Below are positions 22,982 to 40,127 of a DNA stretch of 64,000 bases, in pieces. The stretch is from Anaerolineae bacterium. GTDB taxonomy: Bacteria > Chloroflexota > Anaerolineae > Aggregatilineales > Ch27. The notes under the pieces were generated by a model. The model was given only the letters and a program-made list of their open reading frames with translations. It made no database searches and was not told where the DNA came from. The first letter of the stretch is position 1. Every line of letters starts with the position of its first letter. A program made the translations under genes and the position numbers. The stretch spans positions 103,711 through 167,710 of the forward strand of contig JABLXG010000003.1 in assembly GCA_013178165.1 (NCBI GenBank), given 5' to 3'.

Positions 22982-25357
22982 TCACGCGATCGGATAATCA
23001 GCCTGCCTCATGTATGCCTCAACCTCAGCCATTTTGCTCTTGAGGCCGCACTCACGGAACAGGGCCAGCGCCTCCTCAAAACACTGCCGGGCTTTGCCCC
23101 GGTCACCCAGACGATGATGATCTTCCCCCAGAGACTGCAGAGCGTGGGCCGTCCAGACGCGGTTATCCAGCCGGCGGGCCAGCGCCAGCGCCTGCTCATG
23201 GTTGGCCAGGGCCAGCGCATATTCGCCCAGTTCATGTTCGGCGGAGCCGAGGTTGAACACGGCCACCAGCTGCGTTTCCGGGTCGTTGATCGCCTCCGCC
23301 AGCGCCGCCTCCTCGGCAAAGCAGCGCCGGGCCGCCGGGTAGTCGCGCCGCAACTGGGCCAGGTAACCCTGGTGCTCCAGCACAAAAGCCCTCAGGAAGC
23401 CGTCATCCAGCGCGGCGGCGATACTGGCCGCCTGCTCAAAATGGGCCGCAGCAGCGGTGTGATCACCCTGTTCGGCCAGCACCTTGCCTGCCGCGCAGAG
23501 CAGCACCGTCTCCCGATCGCGCAGGCCCAGTTCGCGGGCAATCTCCAGCGCGGCGCTGTACTGGCGGAGCGCCCCCGGCAGGTCGCCGCGGTCATAGGCA
23601 GCGTTGCCGCACTTGCCCAGCAGGAACTGCCGGACCTCGGCGCGGGGCGGTTCCATCCGTCCGGCGGCTTCCTGAGCGGCTTCCAGCAGACGCAGGAAAG
23701 GCAGCGTATGCCCCCGCGCGGAAAGATATGGCCCGGCCAGGGTCTGCATGATCGCCACCAGCGTCGCGTCATCACTGCTGCTGAGCGCCGCCTCTGCCGC
23801 GCCGAGCAGGTTGCCGATCTCCACATCCAGCGCGTCCAGATCAGCACGATGATCGGCGGCGTACGCCCGGCAGGCTTCCAGCGCCGCCCGGCGGCGCTCC
23901 GGCGTGGCCGCCGCCGCCCGCGCATAGCTGTGAGCCAGATCGTGGATCCGGTAGTAGACAGGCTGATCCTCAGCGCGGCGCAGGCGATCCGCCAGGCCGC
24001 GCCGTTGCAGAGTCACCAGGGCGGTTTCGACCTCATCAGCCGGGCGGCCCATACAGCGGGCCAGCAGATCGGGGGTGGCGCTGGGCGTGAACAGCGCGCC
24101 GAAGGCCAGGAAGACCTGCCGCACGTCCTCTTCCAGCGCCAGCAGACTGGCGGTCATCAGTTCGTTGATGCTGGTTCGCCCTTCTTCAGCGAAATCCTCC
24201 GGCATGACCAGGCTATGGGGCGCATCAGCCAGGCGGCGCATCAGTTCGCCCGGTCCGATCTGGTCGACCTTGAGCGTCTTACCCGCGACCTCCAGGGCGA
24301 AGGCATGGTAGCCGAGCTGGTGGCACAACTCACGGGCCGTCGGATCATCTTTGTAGCTGGCCCCGGCATGGTGGCTCAGCAGGCGCAACGCTTCGTCCGG
24401 CTCCAGCCGCCCTACCTCCACGATGGCGTCCAGGGCGTAGCGGTGGCGGGCGGTCACCAGCACGGGCAACTGGCGCGGCACGGCCTTGAGCACCTGGCTC
24501 AGCGCCGCGCCGTTCCATACGTCATCCAGCACCAGCAGCGACACAGCATTTTCAGCCAGCAGGCGACGCATAACCTTGATCCGGGCGCTGCCGGTGGCGC
24601 TGGCGATCTCCTGGTGGGCGCCAAAAGGCCGGGCCAGAGCCTCCAGCAGGGCGTCGGCCTCCTCGCTGCCCGCGTTGAGCCACAGCACAGCCCCTTCATG
24701 AGTCTCCAGCCAGTCGGCGGCGACGCTGGCTGCCAGAGCCGACTTGCCCATGCCTCCAAAGCCCTGCAGCAGGACGTTGGTCCCTTCCTCCAGCAGTTCG
24801 CGCACACGGGCCAGCAGCGCCTGGCGACCGATCAGGCGGGGTGGCAGATCGGGAACGTCATCGGGCGATTCGGCCAGGGTTGCGCTGCTGTCGCCCAGGT
24901 GACGCAATAACCGGTCGCGCAGCCAGACGGCGATCGAGCGGCTGACCTGCCGCCGCAGGTCGTCCAGGTCGGTGAACCAGCGGGGGGTGATCCCGGCAAT
25001 GACATTGCTCTGCTCATCCAGAAAGGCCTGCAGGCGCGGGTCACGCCCGGCGGTGTCAACCGATTTCACATAGATGTGGCGGTCGATGCCCCACGCCGTC
25101 GCCCGCTGGAACTCGTCAATCGTCCACTCGCCGTATTCCTTCCAGAACAGGCCGATGTACAGTGCGGACTGCTTGAGCGCGCTCAGGTACACCTCCCGGA
25201 TCGAGCGTTGCGAGGCCGGAGCATCCTCCTCAAAGGCCCAGGCGCTGAGTTTGACCAGCTCATTGCCCAGCGTCGGCAGCAGGGCGCGCAATACCTGGCG
25301 CTCCGCCGCCAGCTCCTGCATCTTTGAGCTGATGAAGATGTGTAGTTCGGTCACCAT
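22982..25357 (-). CDS. DUF4062 - NB-ARC/STAND ATPase - TPR protein
   Basis: A 791-residue signal-transduction ATPase. Residues about 1-110 match DUF4062 (ELHIFISSKMQELAAERQVL; ALYIGLFWKEYGEWTIDEF). The NB-ARC type NTPase follows at about 170-420, with Walker A GFGGMGKSALA near 195 and Walker B SLLVLDDVWNG near 275. A winged-helix segment runs to about 490. The C-terminal 230 residues are helical TPR-like repeats (GNAAYDRGDLPGALRQYSAA; NLGSAEHELGEYALALANHE). STAND proteins oligomerise on sensing a ligand through their repeats and activate the N-terminal domain. Many prokaryotic ones act in anti-phage immunity or regulated signalling. Which applies here cannot be read from sequence. It is divergent from the LacI gene and precedes the subtilase. 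Confidence 0.9.
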   Translation of the reverse strand: MVTELHIFISSKMQELAAERQVLRALLPTLGNELVKLSAWAFEEDAPASQRSIREVYLSALKQSALYIGLFWKEYGEWTIDEFQRATAWGIDRHIYVKSVDTAGRDPRLQAFLDEQSNVIAGITPRWFTDLDDLRRQVSRSIAVWLRDRLLRHLGDSSATLAESPDDVPDLPPRLIGRQALLARVRELLEEGTNVLLQGFGGMGKSALAASVAADWLETHEGAVLWLNAGSEEADALLEALARPFGAHQEIASATGSARIKVMRRLLAENAVSLLVLDDVWNGAALSQVLKAVPRQLPVLVTARHRYALDAIVEVGRLEPDEALRLLSHHAGASYKDDPTARELCHQLGYHAFALEVAGKTLKVDQIGPGELMRRLADAPHSLVMPEDFAEEGRTSINELMTASLLALEEDVRQVFLAFGALFTPSATPDLLARCMGRPADEVETALVTLQRRGLADRLRRAEDQPVYYRIHDLAHSYARAAAATPERRRAALEACRAYAADHRADLDALDVEIGNLLGAAEAALSSSDDATLVAIMQTLAGPYLSARGHTLPFLRLLEAAQEAAGRMEPPRAEVRQFLLGKCGNAAYDRGDLPGALRQYSAALEIARELGLRDRETVLLCAAGKVLAEQGDHTAAAAHFEQAASIAAALDDGFLRAFVLEHQGYLAQLRRDYPAARRCFAEEAALAEAINDPETQLVAVFNLGSAEHELGEYALALANHEQALALARRLDNRVWTAHALQSLGEDHHRLGDRGKARQCFEEALALFRECGLKSKMAEVEAYMRQADYPIA

Positions 25358-25612
25358 AGGCTGAACCTGGCCGGGCCTGTTGCGGGAGGCATTTATCAGA
25401 CGCTTACATCTGCCATTATATCCAAAGCTAGCAGAGAGACTCTAATCAGCCAGGCGTGAGCACAACCAGATCCCAAACCCCGACCATTTTCCCCTGTTCT
25501 AGCTGCGCTGACCCTGGGGTTGCCGTTCCACATTGCGCTCGCTGCCCACCCGGCGCCCGGCCACCACCACCCCGCCAGGTTCGGGCACTTTGCTCAGAGT
25601 CATCTGGGCTTG

Positions 25613-25642
25613 TTGACAGTCCAAAACCTTTTGGACTATACT
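25613..25642 (+). promoter_or_regulatory. Strong predicted promoter of the LacI-ABC operon
   Basis: A perfect TTGACA (25613-25618) and TATACT (25637-25642) are separated by 18 bp. The whole spacer is occupied by a palindromic operator, so repressor and RNA polymerase binding would exclude each other. Confidence 0.75.
25619..25636. promoter_or_regulatory. Operator 1 (18-bp palindrome in the promoter spacer)
   Basis: GTCCAAAACCTTTTGGAC has perfect 8-bp arms around a central CC. It lies exactly between the -35 and -10 boxes. Its 16-bp core is the exact reverse complement of operator 2. LacI-family repressors bind such palindromes as dimers. Confidence 0.75.
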
Positions 25643-25649
25643 GAAATTA

Positions 25650-25667
25650 ATCCAAAAGGTTTTGGAT
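25650..25667. promoter_or_regulatory. Operator 2 (18-bp palindrome downstream of the promoter)
   Basis: ATCCAAAAGGTTTTGGAT lies just after the expected transcription start. Its centre is 31 bp from that of operator 1, about three helical turns, so two repressor dimers would sit on the same face of the DNA. In RNA the two palindromes could also pair with each other. Confidence 0.72.
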
Positions 25668-25744
25668 CATCCGATCTGTCGCTGCACCTTTATTCCCTGC
25701 GCGTGTTTGAGGCGCTCCCCTCTGTTCAGGAACAGGAGTCTTTG

Positions 25745-26767
25745 GTGCGGGTCACGCTCAAGGATCTGGCGGAAGAAACCGGCTTTTCGATCACCACGGT
25801 TTCACGGGCGCTGGCGGGCTACAACGACGTTTCCGAAAAAACGCGCCAACTCATCATGGAGACGGCCCAGCAACTGGGTTACCAGCCCAACCTGCTGGCC
25901 CGCCAGCTCAAGAGTCGCCGCACCGAAACGCTGGGCATCATCCTGCCCTCCTACGGCCCCTACCTGACTGACCCCTTCTTTTACGAATTTCTGGCCGGCG
26001 TCGGCAGCGAAGCCGGTAACCTCTCTTACGATCTTCTACTGGGCACCCATGCAACCGCTGCCGATGAACTGGCCGCCTATAAACGGATGGTCGGCGGTAG
26101 CCGCGTCGATGGCATGATCGTCCTGCGCACACGGCGGCGCGATCCGCGCATCCAGTATCTGCACGAGATCGGGATGCCTGTTGTCGCCTTTGGGCGCAGC
26201 GAAACCGACTTCCCCTTCAGTTACGTCGATGTAGATGGCGAGATCGGGTTGCGTTTGCTCACCCAGCACTTCATCGATCTGGGGCATCGCTGCATCGCCT
26301 ACATCTCCACCTCCCCTGACCTGATGTTCACCGAGCATCGTTTGCTCGGTTACCGTCGCACGCTGGAAGCCAACGGAATCCCGTTTGACCCCACGCTGGT
26401 CGAGATCGGCAACCTGACCGAGGAAAGCGGTCTGGAATGCGGCCTGCGCCTGCTGGAACATACGCCGCGTCCCACTGCGATCATCGCCGCCAACGACATG
26501 ATGGCCCTGGGCGTCATGATGGCTGCCCGGCAGCGCGGGTTGCGCGTGGGGCCAGAGCTGGCCGTGGGCGGCTACGACGACACTCAGCTGGCCCGCCATA
26601 CCGATCCGCCGCTGACCAGCGTCAGCCAGCCCAGCTTTGAAGTCGGACAGCAGATTTGCCTGCTGCTGATCGAGCAGATCCGCGCCGAAGAGCCAACCAT
26701 CACCCAGCGCATCCTGGAACCAAAGCTGATTGTCCGTGCGTCCAGCGGACCTAGCCGCGTCAGTTGA
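25745..26767 (+). CDS. LacI-family transcriptional regulator (1)
   Basis: A 340-residue repressor. The N-terminal helix-turn-helix and hinge are typical: VTLKDLAEETGFSITTVSRA, then YNDVSEKTRQLIMETAQQLG and YQPNLLARQLKSRRT. The remainder is a periplasmic-binding-protein-like effector domain (LGIILPSYGPYLTDPF; VDGMIVLRTRR; YDDTQLARHTDPPLTSVSQ). A GTG start at 25745 gives the normal length and has AGGAG upstream; longer frames would read through its own operator region. It sits between its two probable operators and the sugar importer, so autoregulation with control of the whole operon is likely. The inducer is probably a sugar carried by that importer. Confidence 0.93.
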   Translation: MRVTLKDLAEETGFSITTVSRALAGYNDVSEKTRQLIMETAQQLGYQPNLLARQLKSRRTETLGIILPSYGPYLTDPFFYEFLAGVGSEAGNLSYDLLLGTHATAADELAAYKRMVGGSRVDGMIVLRTRRRDPRIQYLHEIGMPVVAFGRSETDFPFSYVDVDGEIGLRLLTQHFIDLGHRCIAYISTSPDLMFTEHRLLGYRRTLEANGIPFDPTLVEIGNLTEESGLECGLRLLEHTPRPTAIIAANDMMALGVMMAARQRGLRVGPELAVGGYDDTQLARHTDPPLTSVSQPSFEVGQQICLLLIEQIRAEEPTITQRILEPKLIVRASSGPSRVS

Positions 26768-26882: not shown

Positions 26883-28166
26883 ATGAAAACCCGTACAGTG
26901 TTGTTTGCGCTGGTCATCGTCCTGGTTTCTGTGTCGATCGTGGTCGCTCAGGGGCCGGTTAGCTTCTTCGGCACACAGTTCTCGCCGGTCGAAGAAGGTG
27001 AGAAGTTCCGCGCCATCCTGAGTGAATTCGGTGAGGTGGACTACTTCAACCAGCTCCAGGAAGGCGAATTGCTGGACCTGGTGATCGCCGAAGCGGAAGC
27101 CGGGCAGGGCACTGTTGACCTGGTGGGCATCCTGCATGGTGGCTTCCCCAGCCTGGTCAAGGCCGACGTCCTCATGGACCTGACCGACCTGCTGGAAGAT
27201 CTGGAAGCTGACCGCGACCTGGCCGACGCCTTTGTGGAGCTAGGCCTGATGGGGAGCGAAGACTACCAGTATTACATCCCCTGGATGCAGGCCACCTATG
27301 TCATGGCCGCACACAAAGATGCCCTGGAATACCTGCCGGAAGGCGCCGACCTGAATGCCTTGACCTGGGATCAACTGGCTGAGTGGGCCAAGGCCATCAA
27401 AGACGAAACCGGCCAGGCCCGCCTGGGCTTCCCGCTGGGCGAAGGCGGCCTGTGGCATCGCTTCATGGAGGGCTACATCTACCCCTCCTACACTGGCGGC
27501 ATGGTCACGGGGTTCAAGAGCGAAGCCGCTGTTGAGATGTTCCAGTTCCTCAAGGACCTGTGGCCCTACGTCCATGAGCAGTCGATCACCTACTCCCAGA
27601 TGCAGGAGCCGCTGCTGGCCGGTGAGGTCTGGGTCGCCTTTGACCACACCGCCCGCCTGATCAACGCTTTCCGCGAGCAGCCCGACAACTTCATCGCCTT
27701 CCCGGCGCCCGCCGGTCCTGCCGGGCGTGGTTTCATGCCGGTCGTGGTTGGCCTGGGCATCCCCAAGAGCGCCCCCAATCCCGAAGGCGCAATGGCCCTG
27801 ATCGACTACCTGACCACCCCCGAGGTGCAGGCGCAGGTGCTGCGCGATCTGGCCTTCTTCCCGGTTGTTGCTGGTGTGGATGTGGAAGCCCTGCCGGTGG
27901 AAGTAGCTATCGAAGCGGCTGCGGTCAACGCCCAGGCCACCGCGCCTGACGCCCTGCCGGCCCTGCTGCCGGTTGGTCTTGGCGAGCGCGGCGGTGAGAT
28001 CAATGGCATCTACCGCGCCGTCTTCACCCGCATTGTGCTGGATGGTGAGGACATTGTCACCGTCCTGAACGAAGAGGCCGCCAATCTGCAGGCCCTGTTG
28101 AACGATACCGGCGCCGCCTGCTGGCCGCCCGACCCGGTCAGCGAAGGCATCTGCCAGGTCGAATAG
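26883..28166 (+). CDS. Sugar ABC transporter substrate-binding protein (LacI operon)
   Basis: A 427-residue secreted binding protein with signal peptide (TVLFALVIVLVSVSIVVA, cleaved before QGP; no lipobox Cys). The mature part has the family-1 pattern: FFGTQFSPVEEGEKFRAILSE, LVDLVGIL-like core phrase GTVDLVGILHGGFPSLVKAD, LTWDQLAEWAKAIKDETG and VVGLGIPKSAPNPEGAMAL. The C-terminus carries two Cys (AACWPPDP and GICQVE), which may form a disulfide. GGAGGAG precedes the ATG. It is followed by a hairpin and by permease, permease, ATPase and glycosidase genes. Ligand is unknown; an oligosaccharide cleaved by the co-encoded glycosidase is the simplest idea. Confidence 0.92.
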   Translation: MKTRTVLFALVIVLVSVSIVVAQGPVSFFGTQFSPVEEGEKFRAILSEFGEVDYFNQLQEGELLDLVIAEAEAGQGTVDLVGILHGGFPSLVKADVLMDLTDLLEDLEADRDLADAFVELGLMGSEDYQYYIPWMQATYVMAAHKDALEYLPEGADLNALTWDQLAEWAKAIKDETGQARLGFPLGEGGLWHRFMEGYIYPSYTGGMVTGFKSEAAVEMFQFLKDLWPYVHEQSITYSQMQEPLLAGEVWVAFDHTARLINAFREQPDNFIAFPAPAGPAGRGFMPVVVGLGIPKSAPNPEGAMALIDYLTTPEVQAQVLRDLAFFPVVAGVDVEALPVEVAIEAAAVNAQATAPDALPALLPVGLGERGGEINGIYRAVFTRIVLDGEDIVTVLNEEAANLQALLNDTGAACWPPDPVSEGICQVE

Positions 28167-28262: not shown

Positions 28263-29666
28263 GTGAACCTGCAACGACGAACAAAGATCAACTGGACGCC
28301 TTACCTGCTGCTCCTGCCATCAACAATCTTCCTGATCCTGTTCTTCGCCTGGCCAATGGTACGATCGTTGACTCTCGCCTTCCGGGCGGAGGAGTCCATC
28401 CTCACCCTGTACGCTGAGCCAACCACTGCCAGCGCTATCGTGGGCAGGATGCAGCAGAGCACACAGGTAATCCTGCTGGGCAACCGGGGCATCGCCGCCG
28501 GCCCATCCACCGCAGTTGAAACGCCTGAAGAAGCCACTGAAGGGGGAACGCAGGCGGTCAGCATTGAAATCTGGTACCACATCGAGGGCCTGGACGCCGA
28601 AGGAGCACCTTTTAGCGGCTGGGTCCCAGAAAGCTACGTGCGGGAAAACGAGCCGGAGAGCGAAGGCGCCCCCGCCACCAGCGGAATCATCAGGCGACGC
28701 GACCGTGATGTGCGCAGCGAGCCGGGGCCAATCAGCCCTGTCACCGCCCGCGTACTACAGGATACCGAAGTCACCATTCTTGAACGGGCAACATTCGAAA
28801 TCTGGTATGAGGTCAGCGGCCCGGCAGTTGACGGCAGCCCGATCACCGGCTGGGCGCCTGGTCGCTACCTGCAGGTTCTTTCGGAAAGCGGGGGGACGAT
28901 CAACGGTCTGGTTGAGACCGGCGATAGTGGCGAGTGGACGCTGCGCTACATCGAGCGCATGGTCAACGACCGCGACTTCATGCCCGCCCTGACCACTACC
29001 CTGCTGCTGATCGCGCTCATCCTGCCCATTCAGTTTTTGCTGGCCTTTACCATGGCTATGGTGCTCCAGCAGCGGCTGCGCGGTAACAGCCTGTTCCTGT
29101 ATATCTTCTCGATCCCCCTGGCGACTTCCGATCTGGCAGTCGGCATTGTGTGGTTCTCGATCTTCACCCAGGCGGGCTTCCTCAACAGCCTGCTTGTCGG
29201 CCTGGGGATCATCGACAGCCCGATCATTTTTCTCAGCCCCAATACAACCTATTACATGATTCTGGCAGTTGTGCTGGCCGAAGTCTGGCGGGCCACATCA
29301 ATCGTGATGGTTATTATTGTCTCCGGGCTGCAGGCCGTCCCGGAATCCTACCTGGAGGCGGCAGAGTTGTTCGGCGCGGGGTTGTGGCAACGTATTCGTT
29401 ATGTCATCCTGCCGCTGCTTAAACCCAGTCTACAGGTCGCCCTCATCCTGCGCACAATCCTGGCCTTCCAGGTCTTCGGTGTGGTGATCGCCATCGCGGG
29501 CCGTGGCCTGACCGTGTTGGCCAACGAGACCTACCGCTGGTACATTGAGTTCCGCAACCCCAATATCGCCGCTGCCTACGCCGGCCTGATCCTGCTGATC
29601 TCGATGGTGACGGCCATCTTCTACCTGCGTTCGGTCCGGACCCAAGAGGAGGCCCTCGGTGAATAG
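28263..29666 (+). CDS. Sugar ABC permease (MalF/UgpA-like) with two SH3-like modules inserted after the first helix
   Basis: A 467-residue permease, about 160 residues longer than usual. Helix 1 is at about 13-35 (LLLLPSTIFLILFFAWPM). Instead of the normal short loop, about 44-210 form two related modules. The first includes LYAEPTTASAIVGRM and ends IEIWYHIEGL then GWVPESYV. The second includes VRSEPGPISPVTARVLQD and ends FEIWYEVSGP then GWAPGRYL. Both follow the bacterial SH3 (SH3b) pattern and would lie outside the membrane. From about 228 the normal permease resumes (RMVNDRDFMPALTTTLLLIA), with the EAA loop SYLEAAELFGAGLWQRIRY. The GTG start follows GGGAGG. The stop overlaps the next permease. 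Confidence 0.9.
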   Translation: MNLQRRTKINWTPYLLLLPSTIFLILFFAWPMVRSLTLAFRAEESILTLYAEPTTASAIVGRMQQSTQVILLGNRGIAAGPSTAVETPEEATEGGTQAVSIEIWYHIEGLDAEGAPFSGWVPESYVRENEPESEGAPATSGIIRRRDRDVRSEPGPISPVTARVLQDTEVTILERATFEIWYEVSGPAVDGSPITGWAPGRYLQVLSESGGTINGLVETGDSGEWTLRYIERMVNDRDFMPALTTTLLLIALILPIQFLLAFTMAMVLQQRLRGNSLFLYIFSIPLATSDLAVGIVWFSIFTQAGFLNSLLVGLGIIDSPIIFLSPNTTYYMILAVVLAEVWRATSIVMVIIVSGLQAVPESYLEAAELFGAGLWQRIRYVILPLLKPSLQVALILRTILAFQVFGVVIAIAGRGLTVLANETYRWYIEFRNPNIAAAYAGLILLISMVTAIFYLRSVRTQEEALGE

Positions 29667-30531
29667 TCAAGCCCTCCCCCCGCTGTCCGCAGAAATGGCA
29701 GCCATCCAGCGCCGGGCCATCCGCCGCCGTCGTTTCAACCGGGCGTTGGTCTACACCCTGGCGATCATCCTTTCCACCTGGATTCTGTTGCCGATTCTGC
29801 TGATCGCTAATATGGCCTTCAGTACGGTTGAGGCCGTGCGTGGCTTCCCCAAGAGCCTGCTACCCAATCCAGTCTCCTTTGAGACAATGAACTTTTTCCT
29901 GAACTCGCAGGGCGTGTTGGATGCAACCGGCCGCAGTATCGTGGTCGCGCTCTTAACAGTTGCTATCTCCAGCCTGGTGGCCATCCCGGCAGGATACGCC
30001 ATCTCGCGCTACCTGTTCCGCGGGCGCACTGCCTTCCGGCTGGCGATCCTGGCGGTGCGTGCCTTTCCGATTGTGGTGCTGGCCATCCCCCTGGCAGTGA
30101 TCTTCATCCAGTTGCGGATGCGCGACTCGCTGATCAGCCTGGCCCTGATGCACACAGCGCTGACCCTGCCCACCACCGTTCTGGTGATGTCCAGCGTGTT
30201 CGCCAGCGTCCCGCGCGAGCTGGAAGAGGCGGCGCAGGTTTTCGGCAGTTCGCCCCTACGGGCGTTTGTGCGCGTTGTCTTGCCGCTGGCCGCGCCGGGC
30301 ATCGCTGCGTCAGCGATTTTCACCTTCGTGATGTCCTGGAACGAGGTTTTTGCAGCGGTTGTCCTGACGGTGCGTAACCGCACGTTGCCGGCCCAGGTGC
30401 TCACAGTGCTGGGCACGTCCCCCCTGGAGTACAAGTTCGCCGGCGGGTTTTTCATGCTGATTCCATCGCTGATCTTCATCTTCTTCATCCGCCGCTATCT
30501 GTTCAATATGTGGGGGCAGATCACCAAGTGA
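29659..30531 (+). CDS. Sugar ABC transporter permease (MalG/UgpE-like, LacI operon)
   Basis: A 290-residue MalG-type permease. Helix 1 (LVYTLAIILSTWILLPILLI) follows a basic N-terminus. The EAA loop is RELEEAAQVFGSSPLRAFVR. Further helices include VVALLTVAISSLVAIPAGYA and a C-terminal FMLIPSLIFIFFIRR. It ends YLFNMWGQITK, where the usual F-x-x-G-x-x-x-G-A-x-K ending is only partly kept. The GTG overlaps the stop of the SH3-bearing permease and follows GAGGAGG. It should pair with that permease as a heterodimer energised by the ATPase encoded next. Confidence 0.94.
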   Translation: MNSQALPPLSAEMAAIQRRAIRRRRFNRALVYTLAIILSTWILLPILLIANMAFSTVEAVRGFPKSLLPNPVSFETMNFFLNSQGVLDATGRSIVVALLTVAISSLVAIPAGYAISRYLFRGRTAFRLAILAVRAFPIVVLAIPLAVIFIQLRMRDSLISLALMHTALTLPTTVLVMSSVFASVPRELEEAAQVFGSSPLRAFVRVVLPLAAPGIAASAIFTFVMSWNEVFAAVVLTVRNRTLPAQVLTVLGTSPLEYKFAGGFFMLIPSLIFIFFIRRYLFNMWGQITK

Positions 30532-30540
30532 GGCAAGGCT

Positions 30541-31631
<1,091 letters not shown>

Positions 31632-31635
<4 letters not shown>

Positions 31636-33533
31636 ACACAAGCGAACTTCTAACGACGTACCACCGCCGCCGGTTGATCCAGTCAGCAGGCGGCAAACCT
31701 CTGGATTTTGCTGGCGGTGGTCTCACCGGCAGTGTCAACCACGACGGGCGCCTGACTGCCCTCAACGGCTACCACCCGGCGCACGGCTACGTTACGCTCA
31801 CCACCGCCCTGCCCTTCCCGGAGGGGGGACGCTACAACCCGGCAGCAGTGCGGGCCTACCGCGCCGGGTTGGCTACCCTGGAAGGCTTCGGTCTGTCGTT
31901 CGCTACGCCGATCGTCGGGCGCGAAGCCTGGCTGGTCGAAGACGCTGTGCCTCACCTGCGCCTGACCCTGGCCGACGGGTCAACCGCCGAATGCACCACC
32001 TTCATCCCTGTTGATACGCCCGTGGGATTGATTCAGATCTGGCGCTTCTCGCGGGCCGGTATGCCTGTCCGTCTGAGTGGGCGAGTCTCGCTCCAGCGCT
32101 GTGCCTACACCCAGCTCACCGAGGGCGGGCCGCTGCCCATGCCCTCCCACGAAACACGGCCCTTCTACCCCCGCTCAGGTGGCCCAGTAGGCCTGGTAAA
32201 CCCGGCGCTGGGCTGGGCAGTTGTGCTTTCCGCCACCGAAGCCAACCCGAACCCTGACGGTACACTCATGCTCGGTGGCGCGCCTCTCACTGCGCCTGGC
32301 TGTGATCCTGCTATGCCGGAGATCGCCCTCTTCATCGCCCCAGGCAGCAATCCGGACGAGGCCTGGGATACCTGGAGAAGGCTGGCCGAAGACTCCTCAC
32401 CGCCAGCTGAGTTGCTGCGCCGCACCCTTGACATGTGGCAGGCCCGCTGGATTGACTGGCCGCATGCCGCCCATCCGCTGGATGCTGTTTTGCGCCGGGC
32501 GTTGGTTTACGCCCTGGCCTGTGCCGTCCCCGTCCCCGGCAAGGCTGCTGGCGACGCCCTCTGCCTGCTGACCGATCACCAACTCCTGCCGCTTTCCTGG
32601 AACCGCGACTCGTACTATGCGGCGCTGGCCCTGCTGCGCTGGCGGCGGGAGATGGCCGAAGTGGTCCGCCGTCACTTGCTGTGGTTGTTTGAGGTCGCGG
32701 AACGCCCCGGCGGGGCCTGGGGGCGCTCTTACCTGGCCAACGGGCAACTGAAAGACCCAATCTTCCAGCTGGATCAGCAGATCTTTCCGCTACTGGAACT
32801 GGCCGATTATGTAGATGCTACCGGCGATCATGCCATGCTGGCCCGTCTGGGGGGACATGCCGACCTGATCCTGGCCATGCTACGCGCCCGCCAGGACAGC
32901 GCCAGCGGACTGTTACCCACCGCTGAGACGCCCGCCGACGATCCGGTTGCCATGCCTTACCACCTCTCCAGCCATATTCTGCTATGGTATACCTTGCGCC
33001 GGATCGGGCGTTTGCTGGCTGATGCCGGGCTTTTTGCCTGGGCAGAACAACTCCGGGCGGCTACGCGCCAGCATTTCACCGCCGATTACGGGGGGCGCGC
33101 CCTCCTCGCCTACCTGACCGATGGTCATGGTCACCACCACCTCTACCACGACGCCAACGACCTGCCGCTGGTTCTGGCGCCGATCTGGGGCTTCTGTGAA
33201 GCAGATGATCCGCTCTGGAGAGCGACCCTGGAATTCGCTTTTTCGGAGGCCAATACCGGGGGGTACTACACCGGCCCGCTGGGCGGATTGGGGTCCATCC
33301 ATACGCCTGCGCCGTGGCCGCTGGGTTTGGTCCAGGAGTTGCTCTACGCCCGCCTGATCGGCGACAACAACCGGGCCACACACGTTATCGCCCGCCTGAC
33401 GCAGATGGCCCAGTGGGATGGCGCGCTGTCCGAAGCTTGCGATGCACTCAGCGGCGCGGTTGTTTCCCGACACTGGTTCGCCTGGCCGGGAGCAGCCCTG
33501 GCCGCCCTGCTGGACGCCGCCCCATCAACATAA
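31632..33533 (+). CDS. Probable (alpha/alpha)6-barrel glycoside hydrolase
   Basis: A 633-residue cytosolic protein with no signal peptide. The first 250 residues are beta-rich (LIQSAGGKPLDFAGGGLTGS; AECTTFIPVDTPVGLIQIW), like the N-domain of clan-type six-hairpin glycosidases. The second half is helical with LLPLSWNRDSYYAALALLRW, where an Arg-Asp pair is typical of the first catalytic region of GH15, GH63 and GH125-like enzymes, and HDANDLPLVLAPIWGFCEA further on. I cannot assign the family; GH125-like or GH63-like are possible. The GTG overlaps the ATPase stop, so it belongs to the import operon and probably hydrolyses the imported glycan in the cytoplasm. Confidence 0.72.
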
Positions 33534-39179: not shown

Positions 39180-40127
39180 TCAGGCAGTAGTGCGATCGCG
39201 GAACAGCCGCAGCTGGACGATCGTGATGAGCAGGATGATCCCGAACAGCACGAAGGCCATCGCCGAGGCCCGGCCCATCCGGGAGTACTTGAAGGCGGTA
39301 TTGTACATGTACAGCACGACCGTCATCGTGCTGTTGGCCGGCGCGCCGCCGGTAGTGGCAAACACCAGGTCGAAGACCTGCAACGCCCCGATGGTGTTGG
39401 TGACGATGATGAACAGCATCACAGGCCGTAGCAGTGGCAGGGTGATGTACCAGAGTTCCTGCCAGTAACTGGCGCCGTCTACCCGCGCCGCGTCGTAGTA
39501 ATCCTGCGGGATATCCTGCAGACCGGCCAGATAGATCACGATGTAGTAGCCCACATACTGATAAACGGCGATGGCGATCAGCACGAACATCGCCTGGTTG
39601 GGATCGTTCAGAAAGCCCTGCCGGGGCAGGTTCAGCACCACCAGCAGGTTATTGATCACGCCGTAATTGCGGTTGAACATGAAGGCGAAGATCACGCCCA
39701 GCGCCAGCGGCGCCGTGATCACCGGCAGGAAGTACAGCACCCGCCAGAGCGTACGGCCCCGGATTTTGGTGTTGAGCAGCAGGGCAAAAGCCAACCCCAG
39801 GACGACATTCGTGGTCACGCCGCCGATGGCAAACAGAAAGGTGTTGCCCAGCGCCTTGGGAAACACATTGTCCCGGGTGAAGATGTAATCATAGTTTTCC
39901 AGCCCGGTGTACGGCATCTCCGCCACCGGCGTGATCATGTCCCAGCGGTGCAGGCTAACCCACCCGCTGAACAGAATCGGCCCCAGCGAAAACACCAGCA
40001 GCCACAGAATGGGGATGGCGATGAACACATACCCCCAGATCATCCGCCGGCGCATCAGGCCGCTGCTCGGCCAGGAAGCAGGACGCCACCGCGCCTGGCC
40101 GTTGATAGACACATTAGGAGGGCGCAT
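39180..40127 (-). CDS. Sugar ABC transporter permease (MalF/UgpA-like, muramidase operon)
   Basis: A 315-residue permease of MalF type. Helix 1 is MIWGYVFIAIPILWLLVFSL, followed by LGPILFSGWVSLHRWDMI, the short first loop normal for this family (unlike the SH3-bearing permease at 28263). The EAA loop is DYYDAARVDGASYWQELWY, and the last helices contain ASAMAFVLFGIILLITIVQL. It is preceded by GCGAGG and sits downstream of the binding-protein gene across a strong hairpin. It should pair with the permease at 38321-39169. Confidence 0.94.
   Translation of the reverse strand: MRPPNVSINGQARWRPASWPSSGLMRRRMIWGYVFIAIPILWLLVFSLGPILFSGWVSLHRWDMITPVAEMPYTGLENYDYIFTRDNVFPKALGNTFLFAIGGVTTNVVLGLAFALLLNTKIRGRTLWRVLYFLPVITAPLALGVIFAFMFNRNYGVINNLLVVLNLPRQGFLNDPNQAMFVLIAIAVYQYVGYYIVIYLAGLQDIPQDYYDAARVDGASYWQELWYITLPLLRPVMLFIIVTNTIGALQVFDLVFATTGGAPANSTMTVVLYMYNTAFKYSRMGRASAMAFVLFGIILLITIVQLRLFRDRTTA

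Follow-up and report, generated by a model that had tools for sequence, protein, structure and literature searches.

Background

Why should a membrane subunit of a sugar importer carry SH3 modules in one of its loops? Bacterial domains of the SH3_3 family (PF08239) are usually thought to bind wall components, and their usual host is an exported enzyme or a surface protein. The question is raised by a 64,000-nucleotide stretch of DNA from an Anaerolineae bacterium of the phylum Chloroflexota (contig JABLXG010000003.1, positions 103,711 to 167,710), here called the window. A preliminary description of its sequence had noticed a MalF/UgpA-type permease with two SH3-like modules between helix 1 and helix 2, and had proposed that they might tether the importer to the wall or add a second substrate site near the channel.

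The comparison that we develop here is with MalF, a subunit of the maltose importer MalFGK2 of E. coli and Salmonella and a member of the same permease superfamily. In the eight-helix MalF a 180-residue domain, P2, lies between helices 3 and 4 (PMC2246101), and the P2 region, residues 91-271, contacts the maltose-binding protein MalE (PMC3150292). The role of P2-like loops rests largely on this one transporter. Our search of the literature on SH3 domains on ABC permeases, which was incomplete and is thus no proof of absence, found nothing on point. Here we describe a permease family that, in the same operon, has zero, one or two extra domains at one point, and thus offers natural controls for deletion and swap; it would, moreover, exemplify SH3 domains that sit directly on an importer.

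A permease with a two-module SH3 insert

The gene set around the permease forms a complete CUT1-type importer, with an extracellular binding protein, a second permease and a MalK-type ATPase that has OB/TOBE domains (Table 1). In the permease itself, Pfam BPD_transp_1 matched residues 258-455 (E 4e-13), hydropathy placed one helix region ahead of the insert and the others behind it, and the glutamate and glycine of the EAA motif were invariant across the aligned orthologues. At 20.7 bits the protein falls below the cut-off of 392 bits of the NCBIfam MalF equivalog and is thus not assigned as a MalF orthologue proper (maltose). The closest solved permease by sequence is SugA of the mycobacterial LpqY-SugABC importer (8ja7, 7cad), likewise of the CUT1 type, which has an ordinary loop without SH3 modules.

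Table 1. Genes of the importer operon and parts of the SH3-bearing permease (window coordinates)
Feature	Position	Strand	Remarks
LacI-family regulator, heading the conserved gene set	25520..26767	+	listed start TTG; the true one probably lies downstream
Extracellular solute-binding protein (SBP_bac_1)	26883..28166	+	signal peptide without lipobox
CUT1-type ABC permease (MalF/UgpA-like, F)	28263..29666	+	467 aa, GTG start, one open frame
Transmembrane helix 1, residues about 13-40	28299..28382	+	hydropathy; basic N-terminus before it; PYLLLLPS...FFAWPM conserved
SH3 module 1, residues 47-126	28401..28640	+	weak SH3_3 match, 21.6 bits (genome-wide SH3_3 search); module alignment
Acidic/Ala/Thr-rich stretch in module 1, residues 77-101	28491..28565	+	most variable part of the modules
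SH3 module 2, residues 150-204	28710..28874	+	SH3_3 30.2 bits, over the cut-off (Pfam, genome-wide search)
Permease core 3' of the insert, residues 220-467	28920..29666	+	pre-helix-2 segment GDSGEWTLRY, helices 2-6
EAA loop docking the ATPase (EAAELFGAGLWQRIRYVILP)	29355..29414	+	sequence; invariant columns in the orthologue alignment
Second permease (MalG-like, G)	29659..30531	+	without insert
ATPase (MalK/UgpC-like, K)	30541..31635	+
Glycoside hydrolase	31632..33533	+	C-terminal part matches GH125 (alpha-mannosidase)

The SH3 identity of the insert, as first proposed, was borne out by Pfam. The insert alone matched SH3_3 with an E value of 1.2e-12 in two stretches, the better one being residues 150-204; in the genome-level search module 2 passed the curated cut-off of 27 bits whereas module 1, which is degenerate, stayed below it. 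Both share the SH3_3 core pattern (GW, IWY), and the motifs originally named are all present, namely AEP/SEP at the starts, IWY twice, and GWVPESY and GWAPGRY at the ends. Modules 1 and 2 are alike well beyond chance, their mutual alignment scoring 88 whereas none of 2000 shuffles scored above 59, so that the insert is indeed a tandem of two related modules between helix 1 and helix 2. Its large size also stood, although the original figure of about 165 extra residues has to be corrected to nearer 175, gauged against module-free orthologues.

Structural comparison gave less. AlphaFold2 models of the full protein and of the insert, each built from two sequences, had pLDDT values of 42 and 32, a very low confidence at which the strands are suggestive at most, and the module profile found a single marginal match among solved structures (2kyb, E 0.04). 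Across all modules the only invariant residues are those of the fold core, and thus there is no sign of a conserved ligand pocket.

In the genome as a whole 117 BPD_transp_1 and 75 SH3_3 matches were listed, and the frame at 28263-29666 was the only one seen with both, which excludes SH3 domains as a widespread habit of this genome's permeases. As originally described, the loop of the permease at 39180 is short and ordinary.

Relatives with two, one or no modules

Relatives were surveyed within Chloroflexota, in genome collections that are largely draft assemblies. Apart from the window's own genome, the closest one shares 72% identity along the full length. Orthologues are numerous in the window's order, where every one that was read over its whole length is either a two-module form of about 465 aa or a one-module form of about 376 aa, and SH3_3 matched 27 of the 29 that were aligned (E 0.001). 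Close relatives thus retain the insert, and a frameshift or assembly artefact can be discarded because many independent genomes carry it. Distribution of the gene is patchy, the same-genus genome G019 having no permease orthologue over the threshold; at locus L179 (G034:C23:382079-383395) the orthologous permease lies in pieces in different frames, through either a sequencing error or pseudogene formation.

A search across the class brought up two-module forms from other orders, together with related permeases of about 290-330 aa that have no insert. In the latter, helix 1 is followed by a short linker and an [FW]T segment ahead of helix 2, and Pfam found no SH3 match in the four that were tested. 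In a phylum-wide sample the other classes showed module-free forms only. Module-free relatives therefore occur in several Chloroflexota classes, and every SH3 form seen came from a part of a single class. The homologue survey suggested by the preliminary description thus yielded relatives holding zero, one or two modules at the same point of the same operon. Wherever the contig was long enough and the gene was found, the gene order LacI-SBP-F-G-K (SBP, solute-binding protein) was kept in all three forms, which makes the permeases positional counterparts.

In a tree of the permease core, built with the insert left out, one strongly supported branch parts the module-free from the SH3-bearing proteins. 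The one-module proteins form one group (support 83) that adjoins four two-module proteins of one family, L016-L019, and with distant outgroups, which have very long branches and give a weak root, the SH3 group is nested inside the module-free ones. A tree of the modules, based on few columns, places module 1 and module 2 of most two-module proteins apart, whereas the two modules of L016-L019 fall together with the single module. Identity between the two modules of one protein is 40% in L016-L019, compared with 23-29% elsewhere. The simplest story that the trees support is one gain on a module-free background and an early two-module state, followed, in either order, by the reduction that left a single module and by a new duplication within one lineage.

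A possible docking site for the binding protein

A profile built from module-free orthologues gives a significant alignment over the part of E. coli MalF that starts at residue 283, and the profile's helix 1 is collinear with MalF 67-105, a piece that scores nothing on its own. By this alignment the SH3 insertion point corresponds to the MalF loop, between helices 3 and 4, that holds P2, and such a match favours contact with the substrate-binding protein. The permease is the F subunit of an ABC importer of the CUT1 type, whose probable substrates are alpha-mannosides. The helix 1-helix 2 loop into which the pair of SH3 modules is inserted would face outside, as expected from the positive-inside rule because a basic N-terminus precedes helix 1. 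We suggest that the modules may work like P2, forming an extracytoplasmic platform to keep the partner sugar-binding protein above the channel and aid its docking. By analogy with MalF we tentatively prefer such a P2-like docking scaffold to a wall tether or a second sugar site, and put its chances at a little under even.

The likeness to MalFGK2 extends to the gene set (binding protein, F, G, K) and to a large extracytoplasmic domain of about 180 residues at the corresponding loop of F. The systems differ in that MalF has eight helices and the permease described here six, that MalFGK2 imports maltose whereas the present gene set points to alpha-mannosides, and that sequence searches revealed no similarity between P2 and the SH3 modules. 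P2 contacts its binding protein, whereas for the SH3 insert we infer such contact by analogy.

Several findings count for docking: the insert is similar to P2 in size, clean empty-site relatives exist in the same operon, the LacI-SBP-F-G-K order persists with zero, one or two modules, and LPNGRTRP and SRTES.TARV are motifs conserved at 90% or more in the one-module clade. A small partial correlation also links divergence of the insert to the binding protein in one-module operons (r 0.20, permutation p 0.026), but not to the ATPase (0.03); this is a weak signal from one test among several, and no such co-divergence was seen in the two-module operons (n 8-9, partial r about 0). Against docking, the insert's partial correlation with the permease core is as strong as that with the binding protein or stronger, and the insert diverges at roughly twice the rate of the core. 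Furthermore, import as such can do without the modules, because relatives that lack them have homologous binding proteins.

A further point for docking comes from binding proteins with fused copies. Outside the window's order, two-module operons often have them; within that order, and next to module-free permeases, none came to light. Six such loci have two-copy genes (L131, L137, L139, L160, L162 and L163), L165 encodes a three-copy protein of 1288 aa, and in L130, the eighth, the contig end cuts the gene. Fused copies are 81-89% identical within one chain. The arrangement recalls GlnPQ in offering more than one binding domain per translocator. In GlnPQ the binding domains are linked to the transmembrane domain (PMC8025302), whereas the tandem copies form a separate lipoprotein, and the window itself lacks them.

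The same spot in the permease thus seems to have been filled twice with unrelated domains, P2 and SH3. A broader idea, that docking domains are exchangeable, the P2 site having been filled independently by P2 in MalF and by SH3 in Chloroflexota, with module number tuned along with the fused binding-protein copies, is speculative and in our judgement unlikely.

Wall tethering, in which the SH3 modules would bind peptidoglycan or a wall glycan and so fix or space the importer under the wall, is the next candidate, and a less likely one than docking. It agrees with the usual wall-binding view of bacterial SH3_3, with the commonness of SH3_3 in this genome and with the genome's transpeptidases, which make peptidoglycan plausible. 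In another member of Chloroflexota, PilO has a fused LysM domain, a precedent for a wall-binding domain on a membrane machine (PMC13319060). The invariant residues, however, are limited to the fold core and include no surface motif common to all modules, the insertion site matches that of P2, and no other permease of the genome was seen with such a domain, though a tether would suit them equally.

The operon and its probable substrate

From the linkage of hydrolase genes the importer probably takes up alpha-mannosides. The last gene of Table 1 has counterparts of its GH125-matching product in L102 and L126, and other operons adjoin GH38 or MGH1-like genes. The GH125 match of the window's hydrolase is confined to the C-terminal third of the protein, the N-terminal part having no Pfam match.

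With a glycan thus at hand, the modules could instead capture an alpha-mannoside, or some larger glycan, and concentrate it at the channel. This second sugar site, as originally proposed, appears improbable: pocket residues are not conserved across the modules, and to our knowledge SH3_3 is not a binder of free oligosaccharides.

Next to the operon, on the minus strand at 22982-25357, lies the gene for a STAND-type NTPase that matches DUF4062, NB-ARC and TPR.

Anchors of the binding proteins and tolerance of the insert

We read by eye the starts of 30 sugar-binding proteins of the window's genome (that of the window and 29 others, L040-L069) and found a lipobox in none of them. Throughout the window's order a lipobox was seen in none of the partner binding proteins whose start can be read, and the fully read permease orthologues carry one or two modules; in nearly all module-free operons the lipobox is present (calls across orders combined a motif rule with reading, rather than a trained predictor). 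The insert might accordingly be imagined to keep an unanchored binding protein near the membrane in place of the missing lipid anchor. There is only a slim chance of this, since many two-module operons of other orders also have lipoprotein binding proteins, which weakens the insert as a plain anchor substitute and implies that the modules predate anchor loss or are independent of it; the genome's other importers, moreover, have unanchored binding proteins yet no insert.

That the modules are a tolerated insertion with no role of their own would suit the fast divergence of the insert and the changes in module number, but is hardly probable given that no orthologue in the SH3 clade was seen with all modules lost and that the one-module clade holds its specific motifs.

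Four of the 30 sugar-binding proteins have Tat-like starts, and the genome has two Lgt genes. The window's binding protein has a cysteine pair near its C-terminus (ACWPPDPVSEGIC), possibly a disulfide, which recurs in the related binding proteins that were read, those of L009, L130, L137, L139 and L165.
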